Translations under genes and position numbers: made by a program
Part shown: piece after piece, positions 7,527 through 27,787 of the stretch
Position numbering within the stretch: position 1 is the first letter of the stretch
How the letters are laid out: every line of letters starts with the position of its first letter
Notes under the pieces: generated by a model
What the model was told of the DNA's origin: nothing
What the model saw: only the letters and a program-made list of their open reading frames with translations
The model's database searches: none
Source of the DNA: a virus
IMG/VR virus record: IMGVR_UViG_3300044729_001715
Location: 1-38,646 of that record
DNA length: 38,646 nucleotides
Direction: 5' to 3' (one strand)

Positions 7527-7756
7527 TGAGTAATCCGTTTGCGACCATCTTTGATGGTGACGAAACTGATTGGGACACTTTCGTGTCCATGATTGCGACA
7601 ACGCAGGACATTCGTGTTCTGTTGTGGAAACTGAACGAGCAAGCGTCGTTCGGTCCGGACAACGAGTGGGCGTTGCGTATGTACGCATGGGTTATGGCTA
7701 TGACTAATCACGAACTGATACCTGAGTATCAGTCCTCAACACGAGGAGACAAGTAA
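7526..7756 (+). CDS. Small acidic hypothetical protein (76 aa)
   Basis: This 76-residue protein (MSNPFATIFDGDETDWDTFV...) is acidic in its first third and Trp/Met-rich in the middle (NEWALRMYAWVMAMTNHELI). The start is in a TAATG junction behind an AAGGGAGA ribosome site. The last codons (ELIPEYQSS) are encoded by palindrome copy 3, so the regulatory sequence is read through as protein. No family is recognised. Confidence 0.68.
   Translation: MSNPFATIFDGDETDWDTFVSMIATTQDIRVLLWKLNEQASFGPDNEWALRMYAWVMAMTNHELIPEYQSSTRGDK
7713..7733 (+). promoter_or_regulatory. ACTGATAC-N4-GTATCAGT palindrome, copy 3
   Basis: Perfect arms at 7714..7721 and 7726..7733 around CTGA. This copy lies inside the 3' end of the 7526..7756 coding sequence and 22 bases before the next ATG, closer than any other copy. 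It shows that the element tolerates translation. Confidence 0.72.
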
Positions 7757-8302: not shown

Positions 8303-8324
8303 ACTGATACTCGTGTATCAGTTT
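8301..8324 (+). promoter_or_regulatory. ACTGATAC-N4-GTATCAGT palindrome, copy 4
   Basis: The longest copy: AAACTGATAC and GTATCAGTTT (8301..8310, 8315..8324) around TCGT, overlapping the TAA stop of the 43-residue gene. It lies 61 bases ahead of the amidoligase gene. Confidence 0.78.
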
Positions 8325-8385: not shown

Positions 8386-9735
8386 ATGCCTGACAATACA
8401 GACAACGAAATACCACCACAGCGTCCCGAGTGGACACGGTGGGACAGTGACCAAATCAATGAGTTCCTTGACGAAAACGCAAGTCTCTGCGAATCATGCG
8501 AGTCAACTCGCCTGCTTCGTCGTGTGGATGCGCCAGCGTACGCTCATGACACTGAGTACTACTGGTATTCCACCGTGTTGCGTCGTCGCTACGAGGGAGA
8601 CAATGATGTGGTGTTCAGCAGGGAGATACTCAACGGCATACACAACTGGACTAGCAGTGTTCACATGGATGTGGAGTTTGAGGCGCTTGGTTCCTCATAC
8701 GACTTTCTGTGCGACGATTGTTATGACGACCGTTGTAGAGATGAGAATGAGGCGCAAGAGAGTACGAGTAGCGATTACGTTCATTCGTATGGCTACCGTC
8801 CTTCACCAATCTTCTTTGACGTTGATGCGAGCACCGGTGTTATTACGAACCGTCGCATCTTTACGCCAGAGGGACGTGAGGGCAAGTTCTCGCCTGCGTC
8901 GTACGAAAACTCGACACGCGTACAGTTCCCTGTGTGTGGGTTTGAGTTGGAGACATCCGATGAGAACGGCGAGTTGAGTTACAACGACTGTGCTCGTTAC
9001 ATCAACGACATGTGTGGCAGTTACTTGTACATGAAAGAGGACGGTTCGGTGAGTGACGGGTTTGAGATTGTCACCCACCCTCATACTCTTTCTGCGTACA
9101 ACAAACGTCAAGAGTTGTGGGATGCGCTCAACTACATTCGTGGTCGTGGTTGGCGTTCGTGGAAATCATCATCATCGTGTGGTCTTCACATTCACATCAA
9201 CAATGCGTCGTTCGGAACGGTTGGTCACGCAATGATGTTTCTCAAATTCATCTTTGCGAACCGTGACCCGTTGGTGCGTTTCGCTGGTCGTGATTCGTCC
9301 TACGCACGCTTTGACTACGACTCGTTCGTACAACGTCAGATTCATGTCGGTTGGCATGACAACGGTTCACCACGGTACAAGGATGGTTCCGTTGCTGATG
9401 TCGTCAAGAAACGTGCGCTCAACGACAACCGTTACCTTGCTGTGAACGCACAGAACGCAAACACTTACGAACTGCGATTCTTCAAGGGTTCTCTGAACCC
9501 GAAGACTGTTCGTGCGTGCTTGGAGTTCACGTTCGCCCTACACGAGTACACGAAAGGCTTGACATCTCACGATGTGTTGGTCAATCGTGCGCTTACGTGG
9601 CGTCCGTTCCTTGCGTTCATTCGTAGCAAGTCCAAGGAGGGTGATGAGTTCGCATACCGTCACCTGTATGACCGACTGTTGTTGTCCAGCCGTAATCCGG
9701 ACAGCGAGTTCATTTCATCACATCAAGACGACTGA
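8386..9735 (+). CDS. Amidoligase-family enzyme with N-terminal Cys cluster
   Basis: This 449-residue protein matches the amidoligase (COOH-NH2 ligase, Amidoligase_2-type) fold related to glutamine synthetase and GCS enzymes, which join a carboxylate and an amine using ATP. Visible signature segments in order: GFELE (185-189), EDGS...GFEIVTHP (218-232), SSCGLHIHI (263-271), YLAVNAQN (350-357) and YELRFFKGSL (361-370). An N-terminal extension carries C35-x2-C38 and C109-x2-C112, a likely zinc-binding pair. The ATG follows a strong TTAGGAGGT site. The next gene is a class II glutamine amidotransferase, the partner expected from published genome-context work on this family. The substrate is unknown: a peptide, cell-wall unit or nucleotide are possible. 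No large insertions or broken motifs are seen. Confidence 0.85.
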   Translation: MPDNTDNEIPPQRPEWTRWDSDQINEFLDENASLCESCESTRLLRRVDAPAYAHDTEYYWYSTVLRRRYEGDNDVVFSREILNGIHNWTSSVHMDVEFEALGSSYDFLCDDCYDDRCRDENEAQESTSSDYVHSYGYRPSPIFFDVDASTGVITNRRIFTPEGREGKFSPASYENSTRVQFPVCGFELETSDENGELSYNDCARYINDMCGSYLYMKEDGSVSDGFEIVTHPHTLSAYNKRQELWDALNYIRGRGWRSWKSSSSCGLHIHINNASFGTVGHAMMFLKFIFANRDPLVRFAGRDSSYARFDYDSFVQRQIHVGWHDNGSPRYKDGSVADVVKKRALNDNRYLAVNAQNANTYELRFFKGSLNPKTVRACLEFTFALHEYTKGLTSHDVLVNRALTWRPFLAFIRSKSKEGDEFAYRHLYDRLLLSSRNPDSEFISSHQDD

Positions 9736-9751
9736 TACTCGCGTATCAGTT
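9730..9751 (+). promoter_or_regulatory. ACTGATAC-N4-GTATCAGT palindrome, copy 5
   Basis: Perfect arms at 9731..9738 and 9743..9750 around TCGC. The first arm contains the TGA stop of the amidoligase gene, and the element ends 39 bases before the ATG of the amidotransferase gene, so it separates the two genes of the pair. Confidence 0.76.
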
Positions 9752-9789
9752 TCACATACAACAAACAAACAAACAGAAGGAGAAATCAA

Positions 9790-10911
9790 ATGTGTTTATT
9801 GGTATTCATGCCCGAGGGCAAGATTGCGTCAAAGCAATCGTTGGAGCAAGCATCATGGTTCAATGATGACGGTTTCGGTTGGGCTATTCGTACGCCTGAC
9901 AAGATTCTCGTCGGCAAGAACATGGACTTCTACAAAGCGTACGAAGAATTCAAAGATGCTCGCTCGTGTTACAACGGCGACGCTTTGTTCCATCTTCGTA
10001 TCACCACGCAGGGTTCTACGAATCTGGACAACTGTCATCCGTTCTATGTCGGCAAGGACGAACTCACTGTTGTGGCTCACAACGGTATGTTGCCTGTCGT
10101 CACAGACAAAGGTGACAATCGTTCGGACACTCGTGTGTTCGCAGAAACGTTGCTACCCAAGCGTGGTGGCATCTCGTTCCTGAACGGCGACTTGGGGGTC
10201 AATCATCTGTCCAAGTGGGCAGCGGGTTCCAAGTTGGTGTTCTTGTCTGCGAACCCTGCATCCAAGTGGCGTTATGTCATCATCAACTCAGAGGACGGCC
10301 ATTGGGGTAAGGATGAGGATGAAGGCGTGTGGTTCTCCAACTCGTCGTACAAATACTCCATGCCTTCCTCTTCGTTCAGGAGCAGTTGGGGTGGTTGGGA
10401 TTACGGTTACTCCACAACGTACAAGAATCCGTACAAGGTTCACAAAGCAACCGACGATACGGTTGCGATGACCGTTGTCCCTGCGACCACACAGAGTGCT
10501 CGCAAGGAGGAACTGTATTACGAGTTGCAACATCACGCATACGAAATCGCAGAGTCGCTGATTGAGATGCACTACAAGACCAACGATGACCCACAGAAAG
10601 TTGAGGTTGACTACTACAACTTGGCTGAGGAACTGTTGGAAAGGTTCAGCAAGATTTATTCACCGAACGGTGATGACTCTTATCAAGCAACCTGTTCTCG
10701 TTGTGGTGCCACGACTGTTCTACATCACATGGATTTGCCTGCCACTCACTGCCCTGAGTGCTCATGCTGTCTGTACTGTGGTTCAGAAGTGATTGACGAC
10801 AACGAAGCAACGTGCTGTGATTGGCCGATGGGATTCACGATGAGTTACCATCCTGATGTAGTTGATGTGACGAGGGGAGGTGAAGATGTCCCAGCAACCT
10901 CGTCGTTCTAA
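9790..10911 (+). CDS. Class II glutamine amidotransferase with C-terminal zinc ribbon
   Basis: This 373-residue protein begins MC; after methionine removal Cys2 would be the N-terminal nucleophile of an Ntn-type glutaminase that frees ammonia from glutamine. Supporting segments: NDDGFGWA (25-32), HLRITTQGSTNLDNCHPF (68-85, with R70), HNG (97-99) and a SDTRVFAE helix (about 111-118). The C-terminal region carries C302-x2-C305 and C321-x2-C324, a four-Cys ribbon, then further cysteines at 326, 327, 330, 342 and 343. No synthase domain is fused, so ammonia would go to another protein, most simply the amidoligase encoded just upstream. The ATG follows GAAGGAGAAATC. The cysteine-rich tail is unusual for this family and mirrors the Cys pairs of the amidoligase. 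Confidence 0.86.
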   Translation: MCLLVFMPEGKIASKQSLEQASWFNDDGFGWAIRTPDKILVGKNMDFYKAYEEFKDARSCYNGDALFHLRITTQGSTNLDNCHPFYVGKDELTVVAHNGMLPVVTDKGDNRSDTRVFAETLLPKRGGISFLNGDLGVNHLSKWAAGSKLVFLSANPASKWRYVIINSEDGHWGKDEDEGVWFSNSSYKYSMPSSSFRSSWGGWDYGYSTTYKNPYKVHKATDDTVAMTVVPATTQSARKEELYYELQHHAYEIAESLIEMHYKTNDDPQKVEVDYYNLAEELLERFSKIYSPNGDDSYQATCSRCGATTVLHHMDLPATHCPECSCCLYCGSEVIDDNEATCCDWPMGFTMSYHPDVVDVTRGGEDVPATSSF

Positions 10912-11044
10912 ACGCCGAGGCAAACTATGGCAGTGTCCACTATGCAAACGTGGTGTGATGCTGTACATAGACGTAGAAATACCACCAACCTGTCGCAACA
11001 GTTTGGTGCACTCAACAAAAACAGTAACAATGAAGGAGAAATAA
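10886..11044 (+). CDS. Small zinc-ribbon-like protein (52 aa)
   Basis: A 52-residue basic protein (MSQQPRRSKRRGKLWQCPLC...) with C17-x2-C20 and a third cysteine at 36 (PPTC), a half or incomplete zinc ribbon. The ATG has a very good GGGGAGGTGA ribosome site located inside the 3' end of the amidotransferase gene, with a 26-base overlap in another frame. Its stop is one base before the ATG of the next gene. It might add zinc-binding or nucleic-acid-binding capacity to the neighbouring enzyme system, which is speculative. Confidence 0.62.
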   Translation: MSQQPRRSKRRGKLWQCPLCKRGVMLYIDVEIPPTCRNSLVHSTKTVTMKEK

Positions 11045-11045
11045 A

Positions 11046-11294
11046 ATGAAAACAGAAACCAAATGGGGTGACCGACACAAGGTTCATCGCTACGACCACA
11101 CACCGTTCGGTGATGTGGAGTTGTGTGACTTTGAGAAAACCGGCGTGGACACATTCACTTTGTGGCTGCGTATCTATTCGGACATGGCAGAAAGACCACA
11201 GATGGATGTGCTGTGGCGTAATTGCGATGCAATTGACGCCCTCGCATACTTCGGTATTCACGGTTCCGAGCAACGAATGGAGCGCACACAATGA
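11046..11294 (+). CDS. Hypothetical protein (82 aa)
   Basis: This 82-residue protein (MKTETKWGDRHKVHRYDHTP...) has a mixed alpha/beta appearance, with strand-like segments VELCDF and TFTLWLRIY and a helical end AIDALAYFGIHG. It has a GAAGGAGAAATAAA ribosome site. Its stop overlaps the ATG of the WhiB gene (ATGA), so the two are coupled. No family is recognised. Confidence 0.68.
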   Translation: MKTETKWGDRHKVHRYDHTPFGDVELCDFEKTGVDTFTLWLRIYSDMAERPQMDVLWRNCDAIDALAYFGIHGSEQRMERTQ

Positions 11295-11602
11295 AACATC
11301 AGTTCCGTTTCGTAGTTGATAAAGCACCGAACTTCGCTAGGGCTGCCTGCAAAGGTGTCCCTACCGAAGTGTTCTTTCCCAACTACCTGCATTTCAGGGG
11401 GCGTATCACACCCAAGCAGATTGCCAAGGCACGTCAGTATTGTTCTGTGTGTCCGATTCAGTCTGAGTGTTTGGAGTACGCTTGTCGCACTGATTCCATC
11501 GGCATTTGGGGTGGACAGTATGTATCAGAACATCTAGCAAGAAAGTTGAGGGAAGAACATGGCTGGTCGTTACACCGTGAAGTTGTCACTGACATTGGAT
11601 GA
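11291..11602 (+). CDS. whiB: WhiB-family iron-sulfur transcription regulator
   Basis: This 103-residue protein has the four invariant WhiB cysteines, C20, C51, C54 and C60 (C-Xn-C-x2-C-x5-C), which hold a 4Fe-4S cluster, followed by the GIWGG turn (71-75) and a basic C-terminal segment (ARKLREEHGW) as the DNA-contacting part. WhiB proteins bind the sigma A region 4 of host RNA polymerase and redirect transcription; several actinophages encode one and it can interfere with host septation genes or promote superinfection exclusion. The gene identifies the host as an actinobacterium. It starts in an ATGA overlap with the upstream gene. It is a candidate controller of the genome's own palindrome-flanked units. 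Confidence 0.93.
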   Translation: MKHQFRFVVDKAPNFARAACKGVPTEVFFPNYLHFRGRITPKQIAKARQYCSVCPIQSECLEYACRTDSIGIWGGQYVSEHLARKLREEHGWSLHREVVTDIG

Positions 11603-11807
11603 GATACGCACGATTGTCAAATCGTTGAGTATTGGCGCTGACCAAGTGGGCAAGAAACTTGACCGTGTGCGTGGCACTTATCGTGCCAGCGATGTGTTGA
11701 CCGAGTATCAACTGTTGACGCATACGAAGTTGCACTTTGAGCGTGCGTTGACTGACATCGTGGACATGGAGGTGAATGATGCCAACTCGCATGACTTACA
11801 TTCGTAG
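11559..11807 (+). CDS. Hypothetical helical protein (82 aa)
   Basis: This 82-residue protein (MAGRYTVKLSLTLDEIRTIV...) begins with a short strand, then helices typical of small regulatory or structural proteins (DEIRTIVKSLSIGADQVGKKLDRV and LTEYQLLTHTKLHFERALTDIV). The ATG lies 44 bases inside the WhiB gene in another frame and follows GAGGGAAGAAC. The 3' end overlaps the lysozyme-like gene by 32 bases. No family is recognised. Confidence 0.65.
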   Translation: MAGRYTVKLSLTLDEIRTIVKSLSIGADQVGKKLDRVRGTYRASDVLTEYQLLTHTKLHFERALTDIVDMEVNDANSHDLHS

Positions 11808-12378
11808 GCGTGTGGCTGTGGCATCTGTGTTGGTGTTGTTTGCATGGGTGGGGGCACGAGTTGCCCCCGCTCTTGCACCACCAATCGTTGTGCCGTTCAC
11901 ACCTTGGCAAGACCCAAAAGTGGCCGAAATACCCAGTGTATCAACTGTTATTCCAATTACAACTGATACTCAGGTATCAGTTTCTCTGTGCGCCGATGTA
12001 GTGAATTTGGCTCATTCGCTGGGTTGGAAAACGGAGGATTTGGATGAGTTGTCCTACGTGATTTGGCGTGAGTCCAGATGTCTGCCTGATGTGCATTACG
12101 ACAAAGACCCCAACGGTGGGTCGTACGGTTTGATGCAAATCAACGGATACTGGTGTGAGCCATCTCGCTATCATCCGAAAGGCTATTTGCAGGCACAAGG
12201 ACTTCTGTCATCTTGCGATGACCTGTACATTCCTGCGATAAATCTGCTTGCTGGGTTGAACATCTACCTGTATTCCAGCGAACACAATCTGAACGGATGG
12301 CAGCCGTGGGCGATGCAGAAAGATTTCTGTGCGTCAGTCCACAACCTGTGTGACCCGTCTGCTATCGTGGGGGGGTAA
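11776..12378 (+). CDS. Membrane-anchored lysozyme/transglycosylase-like protein
   Basis: This 200-residue protein has a basic start and a hydrophobic segment at about residues 12-34 (signal anchor or signal peptide), a Pro/Val/Thr-rich linker, and an SLT/lysozyme-like domain from about residue 85. Signature parts are IWRESRC with the likely catalytic E99 and GSYGLMQIN (115-123). Several cysteines (72, 102 and later ones) suggest disulfides outside the cell. It would cut glycan strands of peptidoglycan. It sits in the early arm, away from the M15 endolysin, so entry, superinfection defence or an unusual second lysis enzyme are all possible. Start ATG at 11776 (or 11779) after ATGGAGGTGA. Palindrome copy 6 lies within the linker codons, and the stop falls between two G7 tracts of element B. 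Confidence 0.8.
   Translation: MMPTRMTYIRRRVAVASVLVLFAWVGARVAPALAPPIVVPFTPWQDPKVAEIPSVSTVIPITTDTQVSVSLCADVVNLAHSLGWKTEDLDELSYVIWRESRCLPDVHYDKDPNGGSYGLMQINGYWCEPSRYHPKGYLQAQGLLSSCDDLYIPAINLLAGLNIYLYSSEHNLNGWQPWAMQKDFCASVHNLCDPSAIVGG
11850..11868 (+). other. GC-rich hairpin inside the lysozyme-like gene
   Basis: GGGGGCA (11850..11856), loop CGAGT, TGCCCCC (11862..11868): a perfect 7-bp stem within codons of the hydrophobic segment (residues about 25-31). It could slow translation or be incidental to the Gly/Ala/Pro codons. Noted because strong GC stems are otherwise rare in the coding parts of this arm. Confidence 0.4.
11961..11982 (+). promoter_or_regulatory. ACTGATAC-N4-GTATCAGT palindrome, copy 6
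   Basis: Perfect arms at 11962..11969 and 11974..11981 around TCAG, preceded 24 bases upstream by a single GTATCA half-site. Unlike the others it lies in the middle of a gene, encoding TDTQVSV in the linker of the lysozyme-like protein. Confidence 0.72.
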
Positions 12379-16172: not shown

Positions 16173-16590
16173 ATGGGATATTGAAAAGAACACATTCAAC
16201 TTTGCAGAAGACCTGAAGTACGGTCAACTGGGCGAAAAGCGGATACGCAAAATGTTGGAAGCCCTCGTTGAAGGCTCCTTTGAAGTGAAGTCAGACCGCT
16301 ACCGAAACGGCAACATGGCAGTGGAGATGCGTCAGAACCCACGCAAATGCGGCAAGTGGATACCGTCAGGGTTGCAAGTCACCAAAGCACAATGGTGGGT
16401 GTACATCTTCTCAATGGACGGTGGCTTCGTCATTGTGTCCGTAGACCGCTTGAAGCGTTACATTGACTCCAACCGTGAAACATTAGAAACACGAGACTTC
16501 GCTCGTCGCTCAGACAACCCAGCATGGGGTTACCTACTAAAACCTGAGAACGTCGCAGAACTTCTTTACGACTCGGCTTACGATGGCTAG
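16159..16590 (+). CDS. PD-(D/E)XK-like endonuclease
   Basis: This 143-residue protein (VKNSKWDIEKNTFNFAEDLK...) has an early GQLGEKRIRKMLE helix (about 23-35), the strand motif FEVKSDRYRNGNMAVEM (about 40-56) giving E-x-K and a later acidic residue, and SGLQVTKAQWWVYIF (about 67-81). This order is that of restriction-endonuclease-fold phage nucleases. The GTG at 16159 follows GGGAG; upstream in-frame codons lie in the preceding Cys-rich gene and are not preferred. It could trim DNA ends or degrade host DNA. Assignment rests on motif spacing. Confidence 0.7.
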   Translation: MKNSKWDIEKNTFNFAEDLKYGQLGEKRIRKMLEALVEGSFEVKSDRYRNGNMAVEMRQNPRKCGKWIPSGLQVTKAQWWVYIFSMDGGFVIVSVDRLKRYIDSNRETLETRDFARRSDNPAWGYLLKPENVAELLYDSAYDG

Positions 16591-17458
16591 AAAACACGTC
16601 CTGTTCGCTGGGGAGGTGTTTGAGAAGTTGCAGTCACGCCGACGACCATCGTCGGAAATGGAAGCACTCATGATTACGGCACCGGGTCAAGACCCGATGC
16701 CTTCTGCCGATGAACTACTAGAACTGCGTGAGGCGGTAGCCGAAGCAGTTCAATCGTTGCCAAACAAATATCGCAAAACAATCCAACTACTAATGTATGA
16801 AGGTTTGTCTTTGCGAGAAGCAGGAGAGTTACTTGGCTACTCCGATGTCCACACCATGCGCCTTCGTAACACGGCGTATGATAAACTCAAAGAAGCGTTG
16901 ACGATGAGCGTCACACTCAGAAGGAGATACGAAATGGCTACAACATGGGACCAGTCAGCAACACAGTGGTGTACACACCTCGGTTCATTGGCGAAACCAA
17001 ACAACAAAATAGATTTCGCGGCGTTGCACGACAGGATAGATGCGCTTATCGGCATCACATTCCACAACAACCTTGAGCCGAACCCTGAAGCATTCAGTGC
17101 CATTGCTTTGCCTGTGGTGTCTTATTTGCGTGCACATGACTGGTGGGATTCAGCAGAGATGGCTCGTCTGCTTGCACGCAAGCAACACGATTACGGTCAC
17201 AAGAACATCACCCGTTTCGGTTTGAAGGGCATCGTTGTTCGCCTTACCGACAAGTATGAGCGTCTAACGAACTTGCAGTTTACGAAAGATTTCCTTGAGG
17301 ACGGTGGCGCTGTTGCGCCACTCGTCAACGAAACAATTGCTGATACGCTGCACGACATCATCGGCTACTGTGTAGTCGCGTTGATGGTTCTTGATGACAC
17401 GTTCAAACTTTCGTTGGGAGAAGAGTATGGCATATCGGCAAATAACAATCGGGTTTGA
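16583..17458 (+). CDS. Sigma region 4-like domain joined to DUF1599 domain
   Basis: This 291-residue frame contains two unlike halves. Residues about 46-106 read LREAVAEAVQSLPNKYRKTI...LSLREAGELLGYSDVHTMRLR, a sigma-70 region 4-type helix-turn-helix. Residues about 120-280 carry KQHDYGHKNI (200-209), VVRLTDKYERLTNL and NETIADTLHDIIGY, matching the DUF1599 (nucleotide modification-associated) family related in style to MazG-like proteins. The usual stop between two such genes is missing. At the boundary an AAGGAGAT ribosome site stands seven bases before an in-frame ATG (16934), so both a 291-residue fusion and a 174-residue DUF1599 product may be made. Start ATG at 16583 overlaps the nuclease stop. 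The two-domain reading is visible; the joint function is unknown. Confidence 0.78.
   Translation: MARKHVLFAGEVFEKLQSRRRPSSEMEALMITAPGQDPMPSADELLELREAVAEAVQSLPNKYRKTIQLLMYEGLSLREAGELLGYSDVHTMRLRNTAYDKLKEALTMSVTLRRRYEMATTWDQSATQWCTHLGSLAKPNNKIDFAALHDRIDALIGITFHNNLEPNPEAFSAIALPVVSYLRAHDWWDSAEMARLLARKQHDYGHKNITRFGLKGIVVRLTDKYERLTNLQFTKDFLEDGGAVAPLVNETIADTLHDIIGYCVVALMVLDDTFKLSLGEEYGISANNNRV
16921..16936 (+). promoter_or_regulatory. Strong internal ribosome-binding site and in-frame ATG
   Basis: AAGGAGATACGAAATG: a near-ideal Shine-Dalgarno sequence with a start codon at 16934, codon 118 of the frame opened at 16583. It is better than the ribosome site of the upstream start, which suggests that the DUF1599 half is, or recently was, a gene of its own. 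Confidence 0.75.
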
Positions 17459-18272: not shown

Positions 18273-18648
18273 TCGGCGTCTTGTACGCCACCCAACTATC
18301 ACGGTCCCACCTGTAGCCACGCCCGTGAGGTTCAGGGAAATAATCCAAAATACATTCCACACCCAACACCTCAGAGTGGTCTGCTAACACATCACAAACC
18401 CATTCAGCCATACGCCGCCCATTGCGGCGACCCTTGGTACCCAACTTGCGATACGACAAATCAACCGCACGACCAGTGCTGTGTACGCTCATCGTTCCCG
18501 GTTTGCCACGCATGTCACGCTTCACATAGGTGCCGTTGTTCCACAACGCACCATCCGTAATCTGCTCAATCGTCTTCACGAACTCCAACAAGCCTGCACG
18601 AGCCTTGCCGTAATCCCCATCACGATTCCCTGTGTACGTCTTACTCAT
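18103..18648 (-). CDS. M15-type peptidase endolysin
   Basis: This 181-residue protein has the zinc-peptidase pattern of the M15 (VanY/L-Ala-D-Glu or D,D-peptidase) group: SVHSTGRAVDLSYR with ligands H56 and D63, and DWLHVELSP with H136 and the base E138. It would cut peptide bridges of host peptidoglycan at lysis. No signal peptide or separate wall-binding domain is visible, so a holin is needed. The ATG at 18648 overlaps the giant-protein stop by 8 bases; a longer in-frame reading from 18816 lies inside that gene and is rejected. It is the last gene of the leftward arm, and its 3' end overlaps the convergent gene. Confidence 0.87.
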   Translation of the reverse strand: MSKTYTGNRDGDYGKARAGLLEFVKTIEQITDGALWNNGTYVKRDMRGKPGTMSVHSTGRAVDLSYRKLGTKGRRNGRRMAEWVCDVLADHSEVLGVECILDYFPEPHGRGYRWDRDSWVAYKTPTIGGAPSGDWLHVELSPRMADSPTLVREAWSDVADSDLFLHMPKGQAKKNRGKSGN

Positions 18649-21600
18649 TAGGTTCCACCTTCGGTTGAGCAGCAACAAGTTTCTGTAACTCCGCAAGGAT
18701 ACGACGCTGCTCACTTGTGCGCATCTGCGGAGTAACTTCACGAACAGGCGCACCCAAGTAACCCAACAGCGGGTTCGTAGAACCACGCTGCTGATAATAC
18801 TCTTGCGAAGGAACAAACCGTTCCACCTGATTCAACGTAGGAACCAAGTTCCCCAACGCATACAACAACTTCTCATCAACAAATCGTTGACCGCCCACAG
18901 AACTACCAGCACCAATCGGCTGACCCAACAGCGAAGCCAACGTACCAACAGGACCCTCAACAGCAATCGGTTCCCTATTGAACTCCCTGTTACGGAAGAA
19001 CGATTTGTTTGCCAGCATCGTTTCAGCAGGCACACGCAACAACGGGTTGATGTTCGCAGCAAACCGTGTCGGGTCAGTCAACATGCTCACATCAGCCTGC
19101 AACCTGTTGAAACCCAAGTCAGGTGTCGCAGCCAGATTGGTGCCAGCCAACGCAAACCCGCCAGCCTCACGCATGTACAACGGCAACCCTTCAGTCTTCT
19201 CTTGGTCCTCAATGTTGCGACGAACACTCTGATACCACTGGTACGGGCGAGGATTCATGTAAATGTTCTGAATCGTCAACGGCAAGTTACGGCTCGTCCA
19301 CATCCAGAACGGAATAATGCTGCGCATCACCGAATCCAAAGTAGAAATGTCTTCGTAGTCAAACAAGAACTTGCGTGTACGAGCAGTAGCACCGTTCACA
19401 TCCAAACCTTGACGAATACCATCGTACGCCAACATGAAACGTGAATGCTGCTCAACCCACGCACCCACACGCCTGTTGGCACGAGTAATCGGATTGTTCG
19501 TCAACACGCCAGCCGTATCAAACGCAATTTCCTCAGACTGACCAACACCAGAACCAAGCATTGACTCATACGCTCGAGAAACAGTCAAACGGCGGCTCTC
19601 GGGCAAATCAGCCAAATACTTGTCAATGGACTTCCCATTCTTCAACGCCTTATACAAGGCGTTGTACTCACGCATACCATCCGACAAGAACTGTGGACGT
19701 GCACCAGCAGCAACCAACATGAAAGCGTTAGTCACACTGTTGCGCACATGGTAACCGGGTGTGGACAACGCCCAAGCCTTGAAGAACCTTGTGTACGGAC
19801 CGAACCATACACGCATACTCTTGACGAACGCTGGGTCACGCAAGCGACCCATGTTCGTAAGAATTTCAGTAACCTCTGGACGCATCTGCAAATTCTCAAA
19901 CGAAGCCAACGCACCAGAACCAGTCAACTTCATCCAGCCTTCATCCATCACCTGCTTGAACACAATGTGGTCGCCCTCAGCAAACACAAGATTAGGTGCA
20001 ATCATGCGCTCCATCCGCGCGGTAAACAACTCGGCAGTACCACGCAACAGATTCGCCCGTGCTTCCAAATAGCCAGTCAACACCGACGCCAAGCGTCGGG
20101 TGTCAGGACCGTCCTGCATCGTGTTCAAACGATTCATCACATCAGAAACCTCGGCGGCGAACTCATCAAAGTCCGCCATCCAACCATCCTTCTTGCCTAC
20201 ACGTGCACGAGTACGAATGCCCTTAATGTCTTCCAGCGAAGCATTCAACAAATCAAGACGCTTACGAGCGTCGTTCAGATTCAACTCAAGATAGAAACCA
20301 ACATCGGCAGCAGAACGCTCCTGAACAAGTTGAGCCTCAACAGTCCTACGCTGCTTCTGCAACACGTTGATACGTTCCAACGCCTCGCTAATCTGCTGAT
20401 TCAAACCCTTCTCGCCAGCACGCTTCGGTGTTCTTGGAACACCATGAAGTTGTAGATTCAACGAACGCAACTCATCAGTCAAAAGTTGACGCTGATTAGC
20501 AGGAACCTTGTCACCAGCAATCATCTTGGTGATAACAGAGATGCGGTCCTTGACCTCAATCTCTCGTGCCTTCAACGTCTCCACAATGCTTCTGCGTGCA
20601 GAAATGTCAGCATTGATACCGTCCATGATTTGCGGAATGTTTCTTCCAGCAGAATCAAACCATGTTGCCGTTGCATACTCTGGAGCGGCAGAAGCAAAAG
20701 CATCCGCACGTGCCTGAGCAGCCACAGGACCATCAAGTGCTTCACCGAACCTCTGCAACGGTTTGGCAGCCAACCTAGTTTCTTCTTCTCTTGCGACACG
20801 CAACGCAGTGTCGGCAAGACTTTCACCCGGCAACGGCTCAACCTTCGGCTTCTGCTCACGCAAAGCCTTAGAAACATTCTTTTCATTCAACTTCAAACTA
20901 CGCTCAGCCCTAGCCAATTCTTCCTCAGTTGAACGCTTAGCAGCAAGCAACTCTGCACCCTCACCACCGTTGCGAACAGTTATCAACTCTTTCTGATTAG
21001 CAGCCAAACGAGCGTTCTTGCCACGAACATCAGCCAACAACTTGCCTTGCGGAGAAGCATCAAAAACCTTATTCAACGTCCTACGACGACGCTTAACCTC
21101 AGCAACCGAAATAGACGCAACAGGTGCAGAATCATTCTGCTTCGGTACCTTCTTTGTTGGGTTTAGTCTCATAAACTCCAACGCCTCAACATACTTATCA
21201 ATACCACGCAATACGTCAGCATCGCTCACAACATCGCCATCAATACGCACACCTAAACGACGCAACAAATTAGGATTGTTCCTAAAATACTCTGCAACAC
21301 GAATAACACTCTCAACAGTAATCATCTGAGTAACAGGACTCGAGTTCGCAATCCGATTCTCCAAAACATCCAACTCTGCATCAAACGCATTAATCCTGTC
21401 ACTAAGGTTCGCTGCACGAGACTGAGCAGAACGACGAGCCTTCTCGGTCGTAGCAGAACGCATGGCATCCAACTGTTTAGCGTGCTCAACAGCAACCTTG
21501 TCACGCTCAGCCTGCTTAGCCCCCACCTGTGCACGCAACTCGCGGCCACGCTGACTGGTCGGAGAAGCAGGTTCTTCAAACAAAGAACCAAAATTGCGAA

Positions 21601-24600
21601 CAATGCCACGACCCTGAGACTCGTCAAACACAACCGCAGGGTCAAGCGGGTTCGCTCCACGAGCGTACCCAGACGTACCAACCACCTCATCCATGCGATG
21701 CACACGTTCACCAGTTGGCGAACCGAACAGCGCATAAGCGCTGGTCGGTTTATAAAAAGATTCACCGCTCTTACCAGCAGTTATCTGTCTACTCTTTTTG
21801 AACGTTGTCAGGTTCCCTTCCAACGCCGAATAGTATTCGGTTTGCGCTCTAGCCAAAGCATCTTTTTCAACAGAAGTCAAATTGTCCGACACAGGTCGGG
21901 CAATATAAATCGGTTCGTCCAACACGATTTCTCTTGGTTCAAACTTCTCTGGCGCAGCCTCACGGAAAGTATGTACAGAACCATTTCCCTTATCCCTGTA
22001 CACGAAAGTCTTATTCCCAGACCCGTCATCAAAACTTTCAACCACATAACGGAACTTGGAATTGTTCTTCTTCACAAGAACATCACGAACAACAGAAGGT
22101 CCAATTCTGCGATTGCCAACAACAAACACATACTTGGATGCTTGACCCTTCAGAACATCATTGGCGACATCCTCCAAAGAAACTTCCGCCATGTCAAATA
22201 CTTGGACAGCCCTACCATCAAGTTGCTCTGCTACACCCGGACCACGAGAAGCAAACCTGCTCAACGCACCAAGAGTTTGCTCTGTGAACGTTTCATCAGG
22301 GAAACGAATGTTCGGGTCGGACAAATCCAACCGAGCCAAACCCATCAAAACCTTATGACGGAACTCACGCTCAACAGCAGTCGTATACTCGGGAGTTTTC
22401 TCAATCGCCAAAATCTGACGCTTAATCTGCTCCTGCTCATTCACAATCTTCGCCACACGTGGAGGCAAAGGTGCTTCCTTTGCAGTCCACTGCTTAGAAC
22501 GCAACAACTGGCTAGTCGCCTTATTGCGAACCTGCTCATCATCGGACACAACATTGATTGCCGCATCCAAACGCTGCTGCATCTTCGGACTTGCAGCAAT
22601 CTGCTCAGCCTCATCAACACCCTGCTTGCGAACAGTAGAAGCCCGACCAATCCTGTCCTCAACCTTCTTCAACTCCGCAGCACTTCTCTGCGTCGCATCA
22701 TAAGCAGCCTGCAACTCATTCGCACGACCACGCAAAAACTCCACGTAACCAAACGTCCCAGTCAACACCTCATTGCGCTCAACACCAGTAGCCAAACTAA
22801 ACGCCTCACCAGCCTCGGGGTCACGAGCCAACGTACGCAAAGCCTCTATACGTGCACGTGTACGAGCACCAGCCTTACCCAAAACAGATTCCCCAATAGA
22901 AATATATTTGTATGTTGCTGCTGGGCTGCTAGTCCCACGCTGCACCAACTGTGTAGCCTCACGCTCAAGAGCGTCCAACTGTCCACGCAACGACTTCAGT
23001 TTTGCCTCAGCACGAGCAGCAGCAGAAGCAGAACTTTGACGCTTGAAAGTCCCAATAGGCGCATTCCTTGCGTCCGCTTTCAAGAAACGAATCTCCGTTT
23101 CAGTTTTCGTAATGTCGGCAACAATTCTTGAACTGATTCGGAAATCAATTCCTACTTCTTCATCCAACTTGGCCCAATAGTCAAGGTCCTTAATACCATT
23201 CCGGGTTTCCCGATAACCGATAATACGTTTTGACGCCTTGCCTGATTCAAAATCTTTTTTGTTTCCAAAAATGATTTCTTTTGACCTTCTGGCAAACTCT
23301 ATTTCATCACCACCAACAACATTTGATGGACGTTTAAAACCACCGCTATTAGAAACACGAATCTCACCATCACCAAACACCATCGTAAAGAAATCAACCA
23401 CACGTTGATTACTCAACGTGGAACCATCAGCATTGGTTCTTGTCGCAATCCAAAACGCACGACTCATACCAAACGTCTCATCACCAGAACGCAACACACC
23501 ACGAGCACGCTGACGAGCAGCACGCTCACCCTTACCAGTAGCCCCAGCACGCTCACGAGCAACCTTCTGTGTACGCTTTGCAGCCTCCTCGCCCTGCTGT
23601 ACAGCGAGACGCAAATCCTCAGCCTCGCTAGAAGTTAGTTTGCCAACCCCAACAAGACGGTCAATTTCTTTATTCAACGCTTGAGGCGTTGCATTCTCCA
23701 TTCGGTTAATACGATTCTGCGCATCCTTAACCAGCAATTTAGCCGAATCAGAAGCACCCGCACCTTCAACTTTGCCATATTCAAAACGCTCAAAATCTCC
23801 CTGTTCGTTATATATTCTACGCTGATAAGAAGGCTCATCAGCCATCTCAAACCTTGCCGCATCATCCGCATACTGATAAGTACGAGCACGAGAAGGAGTA
23901 CGAACATAACTTGGAATATCCAACTCAATCTGACCACGCCAATCCGGATTACCAGCCTCAACAGCCCACACACGGTCACGAGCCTGCGCATACTCTGGGG
24001 TGGTCCTACGGGCCACCTCCATCTTCGTTCCAATAGAAATCTGCTTCTCCACATAACTCAAATCACCAACAACCGCATACAGCGCTTCACGTTCATCATC
24101 AGAAAGATTCTGTACAGCCTGACGCAACACAAGCGCACGGTCAGCAACGCTCGTAGAACGAATCCTGTCACCAGCAACTTTCACATCACCGGCAACCTCA
24201 ACACCACCAAACACCTGTGTACGAATCTTCTCCATCACCTCGCCAGCAGTAAACACCGTATGCTGAAAATCCGTCAAATGCTTCAACTGTTGACGTGCAG
24301 CACCAGAACGAGCAAACGCAAACAGCGCCTCACTAGGCGCAGTACCACTAGGAGTCAACGCAGCAATAGCATCCACAGCAAGACGAGTCGCATGAAGAAT
24401 GTGATAGTTAGCCAACTTTATGCCAGCATCCTTGGTTGATTCAAGAACGTCAGTAGAAACTTCCGTAAACCGTTTATCAACCTTCAACGCAGCATCAGCG
24501 TTCTTTTCCAACTCTGCTTTCACAGCAGTCAAACGACGAAGTTCATCTTCGTTCGTAAACTGCTTGCGAACAAACTCGTCAATCTGGTCAAACAACTGTT

Positions 24601-27600
24601 TGACACCATCAACCTGTGGAATCAAACCGCCTTCAATTCTTTGTCTTGTCTGCTGAATAACATCTTGAAAACCAGCGATGCCGCTCTGCAACTCTGGACG
24701 AGCAATAGCCAAATTGTTGACAAGCACATTCAAACGCTCAAACATGTCAGCAGAATACTTCGGTGTTGCAACAAGACCCGGAGCACCCTTAAACGTATCA
24801 ACCGACTCCTTGGCACGATAGTACGCAGTAAGCGCCAAATCTGGTATCGCAAATTCCAAGTTGTCTATCTTGTCTTGAATTTCCGCGATACGAGCAATCG
24901 TTTCAGAACTGTCAGCAAACCTGCCACCACGTTGGTTTCGCATTGAACCAATCTCACGAATAATGTCCATCTGCTCTTTTACATATTGAACAGCAATACG
25001 AGCCTCACGCCAAACCTTTGCACGCTCAGAAGTACCCTCCAGCAACTCTTTGGCTAGCGCATCCTGCGCAGCCAACCCAGCAGCCCCACCACCGTAAGCA
25101 TCATTGACTGCACGCAATTCGCGTGCGGTCATAAAGAAGAAAGCATCAGCCATCTCAGCATGGTTATCGCCCACAGTTGCACCACGACCAATAATGTCGT
25201 TAACTTGCGCACCAGTCAACTTTCGTTTATTGCTTTTACCAGCACGAGCCATGTTCGCACGAGTCGCACGATTACCTTTCGGCGCACCCATGTCGGGGAT
25301 GCTGTTCAACAACTTGCCGGTATCACCAATAGAGTTCAACGCATCACTCAACCACCCTTGACCCAAATCGGTGCTACTGGCAAACGGAGTGTTGTCAAAC
25401 GGACGCATCAAAATGTTGAGAACCCTGTTTACACGCTCATCACCAGAAAAAAGACCTTCCTCAATGTCAGATTCCAACATCCGATACACAGCAGGTTCAT
25501 CCAACACACCATCGCTCGTTGAATCAGCCAAACGGATACGCTCATAAATACTCTGCAAAGCAGGACCCAACTCGTCACCATACAAACGGTAATAGTTCAA
25601 CGTTTCCTCAGAACGCCTCAACGCTTCGTCAGCGTCCTTGGCTTTCTGTTTGAAAGCCTCAAACGCCGCCTCAGCCTGCTCAGCGGTCACAACACGAGCA
25701 GCAATCATCTCATTCATCTGGTCTGCTTGGCGAGCCAAATCAACCGCCTCGTCATGTGAACGAGTCAAAGCATCGTTCATAAACATCATCACAGCGTTCT
25801 TTTCTTCAAACATCGCAGCCAACGCAACAGCCTCAGCCTGTTGCTTGGCAGACAAATCAGTCAACTGTTTAGACAACGCAGTCGCACGAGAACCAGCCTC
25901 AGCAGCATCAGCCACAGCACGCTCACCCGCACGAACCTCAGCACGAACATCCAAAATCTCGCCCCTCACAGAAGAAGCAATAGAACGACGATAGTTCGTA
26001 TCAAAAGTTTGCTGAACAACCTTCACCAACTCATCGGCAGCATAACGAGCAGAAGAAGTCAAATCAGCAACATTCTTCGCCTTACTTGTCGCCAAATTTT
26101 CCAACGCCTTCAAATAATCTGGGTCAATCTCCCCCTGTGTGCGCAACATGCGAACAAAGTCAGCGTCCTTCAATTCGTCAAGCAATGTAAACGCTTCAAA
26201 CGCACCACGAACAGTTTGCTCATAACCAGCCAAAATACGTGACGTGCTTGTTTCAAACAAATCAAAATCAAGTTTTGTGTGCTTACGCCACAAAGCGTTA
26301 ATCTCATCAATCGAACCAGTCTTGATGACATCTTCCGTATCCAAAAACTTGTCACCTTGCTTAAAGTATCGTGCAGCAAGGTTGTTGTTCATGTCCAACA
26401 CATCAACGCTTGTTGCTCTATCCAACAACTGTGACCACGGATTCGTAGCGTTCCGTTGACGCCAACGGTACGCCTCAGCAGTCTGAATGTGCGGCATGTA
26501 TCGTGGACGACCCGTAATCGGGTCAGTCGCACCAACATTCAACCTGAAACTAGGGTCAATTCTCTGCCCCTCAGTTTCCAACAAAATACGAACCTTCTCC
26601 CAATGGTCCTGCACAGCCTGCGTCGCTTCACGCTGCGCTGGCGACAACAAACCCGGGTCAGCAGATTCAATAAAACGATGAATCTGGTCATCAAACTGCG
26701 ACACAGAATCAAGAATCGCAACAGCACGAGCATCACGCAAATACTGTTGACCATACGAAGCACCACGACGACGACCATTCTCCGAACCACCAAGAGCAGC
26801 CATATACATGCCGACTTTTTCTTTTGGCACACGACCCGAAGCAAAATCTGCACGCATCTTACTTACGTCACCCTGAGTACCCGAAGCACCCTTCGGCGTA
26901 TACAAATACTGCAACTTCTTACCCACGTTTGTGTTCGTAATACCCAAACGTGTCTTAATCAAACCAGACTCAAGCGCACCACCAATAGCACCAGAACCCG
27001 GCAAACGTACACGAGAACCAAACATGTACAAACCGTTACGCTGCAAACCCATAACCTTCGCAATGTCATCAGGCACAGCAGACTTGCCACGAGAAGCAAC
27101 AGCAGCAATTTCGTCAGCATTACCACCATACTGTTTCACAAGGTTCGCCAAAGCGAACCGACCCTCACGACCAGAAATATTCTTCGTACCCAACGCAGCA
27201 CGCAACGCAACATCCTGCGCACCAACCTTGGCTGTTGCACGCAACCCAGCAGCACCAGCACCACGAGCAATCGCCTTCACAGGCACAGCAGCACCCAACG
27301 TCAAATACGTTGTCGGGTCAAGAACAACATCACCAATGAAACCAACAATACGACCCTTCCAACCATCCATCGGCATAACACGACCAAAACCAAAAGTTGG
27401 GTCATTAAACTGTGTACGCAAATCCCCAAACGAAGCCTTCGTATTTGGGTCCTTGTCAAGCAAATCAACAGTTTCTTTCAAACCAGAAATAATCGCACGC
27501 CGAGGCATGTCAATAATGTTCAAACCACCCAACGCCACTTTCCCAAGTGGCGAACCCAACACACGAGCCAACGTACCCTTCGCACCAGTCTGAGCAACAC

Positions 27601-27787
27601 CACCCTGCTGAATACCCTTAATCGCATCACCCAAACGAGGCGTAGCCGCAAACGCACGACCAGCAGCATCACGAGCCTGAGAACCAGCAGCAGCCTCAGC
27701 AGTACGGAACGGTTGCGAAGGCGCAGGCAAACTCTTTACGTTTGCCAGCCTCGCCAACAGTTCATCAAGGTTCGGGTCAACAGCCAC
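18641..27787 (-). CDS. Giant virion protein (3,048 aa), likely internal/ejection protein
   Basis: At 9.1 kb this gene takes about a quarter of the genome. The product is rich in Ala, Arg, Glu and Lys with many long helical and coiled-coil segments (for example about residues 620-740 and 2000-2450). Near the C-terminus are GYHVRNSVTNAFMLVAAG (about 2680-2700) and IIPFWMWTSRNLPLTIQNIY (about 2825-2845), a pair recurrent at the ends of very large phage proteins with polyvalent domains. It follows two internal-type proteins in the operon, the place of ejection proteins in podoviruses, and so probably enters the cell or forms a channel. The start is a GTG in a TAGTG junction. A stretch at about residues 1470-1560 is locally AT-richer in DNA. 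I see no certain enzyme domain; catalytic parts may be hidden. Confidence 0.82.
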   Translation of the reverse strand: MAVDPNLDELLARLANVKSLPAPSQPFRTAEAAAGSQARDAAGRAFAATPRLGDAIKGIQQGGVAQTGAKGTLARVLGSPLGKVALGGLNIIDMPRRAIISGLKETVDLLDKDPNTKASFGDLRTQFNDPTFGFGRVMPMDGWKGRIVGFIGDVVLDPTTYLTLGAAVPVKAIARGAGAAGLRATAKVGAQDVALRAALGTKNISGREGRFALANLVKQYGGNADEIAAVASRGKSAVPDDIAKVMGLQRNGLYMFGSRVRLPGSGAIGGALESGLIKTRLGITNTNVGKKLQYLYTPKGASGTQGDVSKMRADFASGRVPKEKVGMYMAALGGSENGRRRGASYGQQYLRDARAVAILDSVSQFDDQIHRFIESADPGLLSPAQREATQAVQDHWEKVRILLETEGQRIDPSFRLNVGATDPITGRPRYMPHIQTAEAYRWRQRNATNPWSQLLDRATSVDVLDMNNNLAARYFKQGDKFLDTEDVIKTGSIDEINALWRKHTKLDFDLFETSTSRILAGYEQTVRGAFEAFTLLDELKDADFVRMLRTQGEIDPDYLKALENLATSKAKNVADLTSSARYAADELVKVVQQTFDTNYRRSIASSVRGEILDVRAEVRAGERAVADAAEAGSRATALSKQLTDLSAKQQAEAVALAAMFEEKNAVMMFMNDALTRSHDEAVDLARQADQMNEMIAARVVTAEQAEAAFEAFKQKAKDADEALRRSEETLNYYRLYGDELGPALQSIYERIRLADSTSDGVLDEPAVYRMLESDIEEGLFSGDERVNRVLNILMRPFDNTPFASSTDLGQGWLSDALNSIGDTGKLLNSIPDMGAPKGNRATRANMARAGKSNKRKLTGAQVNDIIGRGATVGDNHAEMADAFFFMTARELRAVNDAYGGGAAGLAAQDALAKELLEGTSERAKVWREARIAVQYVKEQMDIIREIGSMRNQRGGRFADSSETIARIAEIQDKIDNLEFAIPDLALTAYYRAKESVDTFKGAPGLVATPKYSADMFERLNVLVNNLAIARPELQSGIAGFQDVIQQTRQRIEGGLIPQVDGVKQLFDQIDEFVRKQFTNEDELRRLTAVKAELEKNADAALKVDKRFTEVSTDVLESTKDAGIKLANYHILHATRLAVDAIAALTPSGTAPSEALFAFARSGAARQQLKHLTDFQHTVFTAGEVMEKIRTQVFGGVEVAGDVKVAGDRIRSTSVADRALVLRQAVQNLSDDEREALYAVVGDLSYVEKQISIGTKMEVARRTTPEYAQARDRVWAVEAGNPDWRGQIELDIPSYVRTPSRARTYQYADDAARFEMADEPSYQRRIYNEQGDFERFEYGKVEGAGASDSAKLLVKDAQNRINRMENATPQALNKEIDRLVGVGKLTSSEAEDLRLAVQQGEEAAKRTQKVARERAGATGKGERAARQRARGVLRSGDETFGMSRAFWIATRTNADGSTLSNQRVVDFFTMVFGDGEIRVSNSGGFKRPSNVVGGDEIEFARRSKEIIFGNKKDFESGKASKRIIGYRETRNGIKDLDYWAKLDEEVGIDFRISSRIVADITKTETEIRFLKADARNAPIGTFKRQSSASAAARAEAKLKSLRGQLDALEREATQLVQRGTSSPAATYKYISIGESVLGKAGARTRARIEALRTLARDPEAGEAFSLATGVERNEVLTGTFGYVEFLRGRANELQAAYDATQRSAAELKKVEDRIGRASTVRKQGVDEAEQIAASPKMQQRLDAAINVVSDDEQVRNKATSQLLRSKQWTAKEAPLPPRVAKIVNEQEQIKRQILAIEKTPEYTTAVEREFRHKVLMGLARLDLSDPNIRFPDETFTEQTLGALSRFASRGPGVAEQLDGRAVQVFDMAEVSLEDVANDVLKGQASKYVFVVGNRRIGPSVVRDVLVKKNNSKFRYVVESFDDGSGNKTFVYRDKGNGSVHTFREAAPEKFEPREIVLDEPIYIARPVSDNLTSVEKDALARAQTEYYSALEGNLTTFKKSRQITAGKSGESFYKPTSAYALFGSPTGERVHRMDEVVGTSGYARGANPLDPAVVFDESQGRGIVRNFGSLFEEPASPTSQRGRELRAQVGAKQAERDKVAVEHAKQLDAMRSATTEKARRSAQSRAANLSDRINAFDAELDVLENRIANSSPVTQMITVESVIRVAEYFRNNPNLLRRLGVRIDGDVVSDADVLRGIDKYVEALEFMRLNPTKKVPKQNDSAPVASISVAEVKRRRRTLNKVFDASPQGKLLADVRGKNARLAANQKELITVRNGGEGAELLAAKRSTEEELARAERSLKLNEKNVSKALREQKPKVEPLPGESLADTALRVAREEETRLAAKPLQRFGEALDGPVAAQARADAFASAAPEYATATWFDSAGRNIPQIMDGINADISARRSIVETLKAREIEVKDRISVITKMIAGDKVPANQRQLLTDELRSLNLQLHGVPRTPKRAGEKGLNQQISEALERINVLQKQRRTVEAQLVQERSAADVGFYLELNLNDARKRLDLLNASLEDIKGIRTRARVGKKDGWMADFDEFAAEVSDVMNRLNTMQDGPDTRRLASVLTGYLEARANLLRGTAELFTARMERMIAPNLVFAEGDHIVFKQVMDEGWMKLTGSGALASFENLQMRPEVTEILTNMGRLRDPAFVKSMRVWFGPYTRFFKAWALSTPGYHVRNSVTNAFMLVAAGARPQFLSDGMREYNALYKALKNGKSIDKYLADLPESRRLTVSRAYESMLGSGVGQSEEIAFDTAGVLTNNPITRANRRVGAWVEQHSRFMLAYDGIRQGLDVNGATARTRKFLFDYEDISTLDSVMRSIIPFWMWTSRNLPLTIQNIYMNPRPYQWYQSVRRNIEDQEKTEGLPLYMREAGGFALAGTNLAATPDLGFNRLQADVSMLTDPTRFAANINPLLRVPAETMLANKSFFRNREFNREPIAVEGPVGTLASLLGQPIGAGSSVGGQRFVDEKLLYALGNLVPTLNQVERFVPSQEYYQQRGSTNPLLGYLGAPVREVTPQMRTSEQRRILAELQKLVAAQPKVEPNE

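Follow-up and report, generated by a model that had tools for sequence, protein, structure and literature searches.

Comparison with described amidoligase–glutaminase pairs

Amidoligases of the Amidoligase_2 family (PF12224) are encoded next to a class II glutaminase in several described phages, and published predictions that such pairs modify peptides or the cell wall (PMC10580990, PMC5498523) agree with what an earlier note on the present DNA had stated. PMC10580990 credits Iyer 2009 with the proposal that phiEco32-type genes alter the cell wall against superinfection and Mageeney 2012 with the proposal that the genes of phage Marvin serve secondary metabolites; the same paper, on OM43 phages, calls the specific functions of such genes unexplored. 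A Pseudoalteromonas phage paper names a larger gene set, of the phiEco32/LUZ24/RIO-1 type, a peptidoglycan modification cassette (PMC5498523; Hardies 2013 cited there). Here, an amidoligase gene and a glutaminase gene are analyzed in a viral contig of 38,646 nucleotides (nt), positions 1 to 38,646 of the IMG/VR record IMGVR_UViG_3300044729_001715 (the window). The two genes lie on the same strand in the order amidoligase–glutaminase with 54 nt between them, and each follows a Shine-Dalgarno sequence (AGGAGG and AAGGAG, respectively).

8386..9735, plus strand: amidoligase, 449 residues (Amidoligase_2, PF12224; glutamine-synthetase-like fold)
9790..10911, plus strand: class II (N-terminal nucleophile, Ntn) glutamine amidotransferase (GATase), 373 residues (C2 nucleophile, class II motifs, Cys-rich C-terminus)

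The pair is already known from Marvin and MEP401/402, and sequence comparison places the window pair with the Marvin type, not in the LUZ24 cassette. Gp105 and gp106 of Marvin (Marvinvirus, 19 records) form the same adjacent pair in the same order and on the same strand. They share 37% identity with the window in the ligase (residues 182–431; E about 1e-25) and 38% in the glutaminase (residues 1–181; E about 1e-28), together with the N-terminal CxxC of the ligase and the C-terminal Cys-rich region of the glutaminase. Marvin differs in that it is a mycobacteriophage, carries the pair close to the end of its genome and has no WhiB or replication genes next to it; unlike the window ligase, its ligase carries an extra C-terminal extension with more cysteines. 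The Methylophilales phages MEP401 and MEP402 (MEP402 gp06/gp07; PMC10580990) carry, ahead of their primase, helicase and polymerase genes, a PF12224 amidoligase gene adjoining a GATase gene, but the identities are 27% (ligase) and 32% (glutaminase), the ligase N-terminus is longer and the glutaminase has no C-terminal Cys domain. A podovirus from Manatee Spring also has the pair.

LUZ24 likewise encodes an adjacent amidoligase (gp18, PF12224) and class II glutaminase (gp19), but its cassette adds COOH-NH2 ligase (PF14395), RimK-like (ATP-grasp) and GGCT genes. The LUZ24 ligase reaches the window family at E 0.037 (9-protein set) and lacks an N-terminal zinc knuckle, and the LUZ24 glutaminase is similar to the window family over the R..G/HPF/HNG stretch only. 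No relatives of LUZ24 gp16, gp21 or gp22 were found in the window or the searched loci, although the record may be incomplete. PF14395, which matches LUZ24 gp16, has no match in the record, where the controls are silent too. Membership of the phiEco32/LUZ24 cassette was rejected, as the searches revealed no partner genes and the proteins show only a remote relationship.

Pairing of the two genes

Gene-neighborhood comparisons support the view that the amidoligase and glutaminase form one functional unit. Amidoligase relatives are encoded by at least 544 viral stretches and at least 480 genome stretches, and the nearest 80 viral loci were counted. When the search is seeded with the amidoligase, the next same-strand gene is a glutaminase in 80 of 80 viral loci, a count that partly reflects descent because these loci are related to each other, and in all four phage records. 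Seventy-five genome loci have sufficient room, and in 66 of them the glutaminase comes directly next. In five others it follows a little later, in most cases after an additional or broken ligase; one has both proteins in a single open reading frame (ORF), and three lack a glutaminase. A scan seeded with a 63-row glutaminase alignment finds the amidoligase directly upstream in 79 of 79 loci with room. The survey of related phages proposed in the earlier note thus finds the two genes together almost without exception.

The module is independent of the genome backbone. Mobile elements of Clostridia carry the pair among integrase, recombinase, relaxase, TraG-like and DUF960 genes, and the families common to Clostridia and phage loci are essentially this pair alone, except in L087, a metagenome-assembled contig that shares more families with the phage loci and looks like a phage contig. 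Direct coupling is favored by the absence, among the scanned neighbor families, of a third enzyme that accompanies the pair in both phages and Clostridia elements. In the single-ORF locus (L143:1674-3845), the amidoligase and glutaminase occupy one 723-residue ORF with an internal glutaminase Met-Cys at approximately residue 397. It was counted as a Rosetta-stone fusion but is weak as such, since a stop codon lost in assembly would look the same. Five relatives encode two amidoligases, the additional one being shorter and lying on the same strand upstream of the main pair (L007:3662-4432, L018:3145-3957, L019:4872-5684, L023:3757-4407 and L035:4761-5576).

Conserved motifs and predicted folds

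The amidoligase matches Amidoligase_2 at 34.6 bits (cut-off 22; E 2.3e-8) and phrog_22302 in PHROGs (E 3.5e-30), and PF12224 is matched by 85 of 87 amidoligase relatives. Its motifs are G185xE187xE189, D219GS..G225xE227, C265GxH268xH270, R302 and N354..N357..T360xE362xR364xF366. The 87 amidoligases share 18 invariant columns, with E187, E189, D219, S221, E227, H268, H270, R302, N354, T360, E362, R364 and F366 invariant, and the window protein keeps every conserved motif residue. The patterns used to collect loci included GxExV and CGxHxH, and NxxTxExRxF was used in the genome scan alone; ExE, R302 and the N-terminal Cys columns never served as search patterns.

The glutaminase begins with M1 and the nucleophile C2, followed by R70/T73/G75, N81-C82-H83-P84-F85, H97-N98-G99 and D113, an α-helical region (residues 235–289) and a C-terminal Cys-rich domain (C302–C343). 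M1-C2, R70, T73, G75, H83PF, H97NG and D113 are invariant in 63 glutaminases. The GATase_4 score of the window protein is 20 bits, below the Pfam cut-off of 23, and GATase_4 is matched by all 63 family members at E ≤ 0.01 (best 4.8e-9). The window protein also matches phrog_25883 (E 2.6e-33), and a five-sequence profile finds the glutaminase domain of GlmS (1xff; E 1.6e-9). The best sequence matches are the ammonia-delivering GlmS and PurF. A possible loss of ATP-binding or catalytic residues was looked for in the pair, and the motif residues prove invariant. We take these residues in both proteins as the likely equivalents of the metal-, ATP- and glutamine-binding sites in glutamine synthetase (GS) and class II GATases.

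The AlphaFold model of the amidoligase has a mean predicted local distance difference test (pLDDT) score of 78, with the core mostly above 90 and a low-confidence stretch at residues 47–101. In Foldseek, the solved structures that match it best belong to GS-superfamily carboxylate-amine ligases: GmaS, GS, PafA/Dop and YbdK (GCS2), with E values of 7e-5 to 4e-4. These families have motifs of the ExE, HxH and ExR type, but their PDB chains have no detectable sequence relation to the window amidoligase, and the amidoligase sequence profile matched no ligase among solved structures. None of these families is known to have a dedicated glutaminase partner. The glutaminase model (mean pLDDT 81, low-confidence stretch at residues 191–231) matches the class II Ntn fold of GlmS, EgtC and PurF. 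The ORFs and the Pfam, PHROG and fold matches agree on an adjacent amidoligase and Cys2 Ntn glutaminase, as had been read from the letters alone.

Cysteine clusters

Both proteins contain cysteine clusters at exactly the residues given in the earlier note. The amidoligase has an N-terminal C35xxC38/C109xxC112 arrangement, in which C35 is conserved in 87 of 87 sequences and C38, C109 and C112 in 86. The glutaminase has nine C-terminal cysteines (C302/305/321/324 and C326/327/330/342/343). C302 and C305 are kept in 62 of 63 sequences, C321, C324, C327 and C330 in 61 and C342 in 58; C326 and C343 are not conserved. In residue shuffles, the two CxxC motifs of the amidoligase are reached in 78 of 5000 trials and the four of the glutaminase in 1 of 5000, but the clusters are judged real on their conservation across species, which is far stronger evidence than the shuffle test. 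By alignment, they are conserved parts of both proteins rather than chance. Early phage operons do contain many unrelated neighbors, and the viral loci are mutually related. Nevertheless, fortuitous clusters beside an unrelated glutaminase are scarcely credible, given the two-way pairing in backbones that otherwise have hardly a gene in common; the conservation counts (86–87 of 87 in the ligase, 58–62 of 63 in the glutaminase) already refute this explanation.

The conserved paired CxxC motifs fit zinc ribbon or treble clef domains and may bind metal. Compared with the window protein, most amidoligase relatives have additional CxxC knuckles, and LIM, DZR or zinc ribbon families of Pfam match some of the relatives. 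The N-terminal amidoligase knuckle, being near-universal, may be a general requirement for pairing. At least two C-terminal CxxC motifs occur in 75 of 80 viral versus 2 of 72 genome glutaminases, which marks the putative zinc region of the glutaminase as a trait of this phage group; since it is mostly absent in paired Clostridia relatives, it cannot be generally needed for pairing.

A small Cys protein had also been reported to overlap the glutaminase gene, and it is present there behind a strong Shine-Dalgarno sequence (GGGGAGG).

10886..11044, plus strand: small zinc-knuckle-like protein, 52 residues (C17xxC20 ... C36), sharing 26 nt with the glutaminase gene

Homologues lie directly behind the glutaminase in L168 (66% identity), L007/L169 (55%) and L008/L170 (49%). 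The ORF is considered a real gene because homologues occupy the same place in three relatives. A role as a general substrate peptide was rejected, as the protein is directly behind the glutaminase in the closest relatives only; the wider CxxC..C family sits further downstream in other relatives. Tiny W-x-C-x2-C ... P-x-C-x-N proteins, a family that includes the 52-residue protein, are found at L168:5112-5252 and in L204-L206, L216, L221, L224 and L226.

Proposed reaction and alternative explanations

The pair probably constitutes a two-subunit, glutamine-dependent carboxamide synthetase with the glutaminase and synthetase on separate chains. The Ntn subunit, with a mature N-terminal Cys, would hydrolyze glutamine to glutamate and ammonia, and the GS-fold subunit would use ATP/Mg to convert a carboxylate into an activated acyl phosphate, which ammonia would attack to yield a primary amide. 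The N-terminal zinc knuckle of the amidoligase would most likely dock the substrate or partner, as would, in this phage group, the C-terminal zinc ribbons of the glutaminase. The position of the pair in the early operon suggests action on the host or an early intermediate. Our best single guess at the target, a tentative one, is a free carboxylate in the envelope or cell wall of the host; this substrate is also the favorite of the literature, by analogy.

Several observations count against a synthetase. The conservation of GxExV and CGxHxH is partly selected, both having served as search patterns. The fold matches of the amidoligase have low template modeling (TM) scores (~0.3–0.4), which suffice to assign the superfamily but are too low to define the reaction. 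EgtC, which cleaves γ-glutamyl amides rather than feeding ammonia, also has the class II fold, and the literature located holds no biochemistry on any PF12224 member. Protein distances of the amidoligase and glutaminase correlate at 0.90 (permutations ≤0.12; partial correlation 0.58 given WhiB and 0.70 given terminase), but amidoligase–WhiB distances correlate equally and most of the 0.90 is common descent, so correlated distances were rejected as weak proof of coupling.

The comparison with EgtC leads to a different chemistry. In ergothioneine synthesis, EgtA/EgtC likewise combine a ligase from the GS superfamily with an Ntn hydrolase of class II. In a similar γ-glutamyl carrier pathway, the ligase would couple an amine to glutamate through the γ-carboxylate and the Ntn hydrolase would cleave the glutamate off afterwards, so that the pair would protect or carry an amine and deliver no ammonia. 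EgtC structures (4zfl and 4zfk; E 4e-5 to 1e-4) are among the fold matches of the glutaminase, GmaS and YbdK are among those of the amidoligase, and the class II active-site residues recognize a γ-glutamyl group either way. This route is nonetheless rather improbable, because it requires an enzyme for the intermediate step, and neither a third family shared by phage and Clostridia loci nor any other conserved enzyme of such a pathway is seen near the pair. In addition, the best sequence matches of the glutaminase deliver ammonia, whereas EgtC is a γ-glutamyl hydrolase. Within the carboxamide synthetase reading, the target may be D-iso-glutamate or meso-diaminopimelate of peptidoglycan, whose amidation would change cross-linking or lysin sensitivity or exclude other phages. 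PMC10580990 and PMC5498523 contain such a proposal for phiEco32-type cassettes, repeated for OM43 and Pseudoalteromonas phages; amidation of peptidoglycan by MurT/GatD is established chemistry (PMC3267633); and the early operon that holds the pair also includes the gene for an SLT-type transglycosylase in the window and 15 relatives. This version is less likely than not, however, as the analogy behind it is with a multi-gene cassette from which no further members turned up here, the wider family extends to giant viruses (fold matches in Catovirus and Hyperionvirus) with hosts lacking peptidoglycan, and the transglycosylase may just be a lysis enzyme.

Modification of a nucleotide, DNA base, tRNA or host or defense protein would instead serve counter-defense or establishment of a mobile element, with the zinc knuckles binding a nucleic acid or protein target. 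Establishment and anti-restriction genes typically lie where the pair is located, in early operons of phages and in elements that also encode an integrase, recombinase and relaxase; the zinc knuckles of the amidoligase are near-universal; and a DUF1599 domain lies beside sigma-70 region 4 in the same window. However, no base-modification partner is conserved among the scanned neighbor families and PADLOC (2023 library) has no model for either protein, and we regard such a target as unlikely. Somewhat unlikely, too, is the broader idea of a self-contained mobile amidation module that spread independently in phages and conjugative or integrative elements of Clostridia and acts in counter-defense or establishment on a non-peptidoglycan target (nucleic acid, nucleotide or defense protein), with the zinc knuckle of the ligase as the target reader.

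Gene setting and repeated palindrome

The contig encodes a P22/SU10-type portal, with a weak match to an SU10-type capsid protein, and a terminase on the minus strand. A nucleotide search of phage records found no relatives. The plus-strand early operon comprises the amidoligase and glutaminase, the small zinc protein, WhiB, an SLT-type transglycosylase, a PD-(D/E)XK exonuclease, a DnaB helicase and a primase.

11291..11602, plus strand: WhiB-like regulator, downstream of and outside the enzyme pair
11776-12378, plus strand (early operon): SLT-type transglycosylase, conserved just downstream of WhiB in 15 relatives and a possible lysis enzyme

In 62 of the 80 viral relatives WhiB closely follows the pair, and since WhiB is an actinobacterial family, the host of the phage is most likely an actinobacterium. 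An ORF at 16583-17458 joins sigma-70 region 4 to a DUF1599 (nucleotide-modification-associated) domain, an unusual combination. A 3048-residue ORF on the minus strand (18641-27787) has no PHROG match.

A palindrome, CTGATACnnnnGTATCAG, occurs in six copies in the window (starts 6457, 7004, 7715, 8304, 9732 and 11963), with 12 two-strand matches versus 0.56 expected. Each gene of the pair is preceded by one copy, as the earlier note had observed.

8304..8321: palindrome CTGATACTCGTGTATCAG, 64 nt before the amidoligase ATG
9732..9749: palindrome CTGATACTCGCGTATCAG, sharing bases with the amidoligase stop codon and separated by 40 nt from the glutaminase ATG

The copy at 11963-11980 lies inside the transglycosylase ORF, in the part that links the hydrophobic N-terminus with the catalytic domain, and that at 7715-7732 inside a 76-residue ORF; the site is thus kept even in coding sequence. 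A repeated perfect palindrome (3–9 copies, 7-base arms) is present in the same early region in 38 of 80 related viral loci (L007-L086), often right behind a stop codon, whereas at least three copies occurred in 0 of 240 shuffles and 0 of 80 genome loci. The arm is common to the copies within one phage but differs between phages (for example ACTGATAC, AGTTGGT, GTACGAT, GTTTGGA, GGTCGGA and GTAGGAT). The set resembles a co-evolving operator/stoperator set or RNA hairpins.

Implications

To the earlier description of the pair, the analysis adds co-occurrence counts in both directions, conservation of the putative zinc motifs, independence of the module from the backbone and separation from the LUZ24 cassette. 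A vague annotation thereby becomes a compact two-protein system with named residues in a minimal, cassette-free context, whose relatives occur in the viral and genome stretches counted above, the nearest almost always with a glutaminase. Phage Marvin in Mycobacterium smegmatis mc2 155 offers a culturable model in which the long-standing cell-wall proposal could be tested directly.

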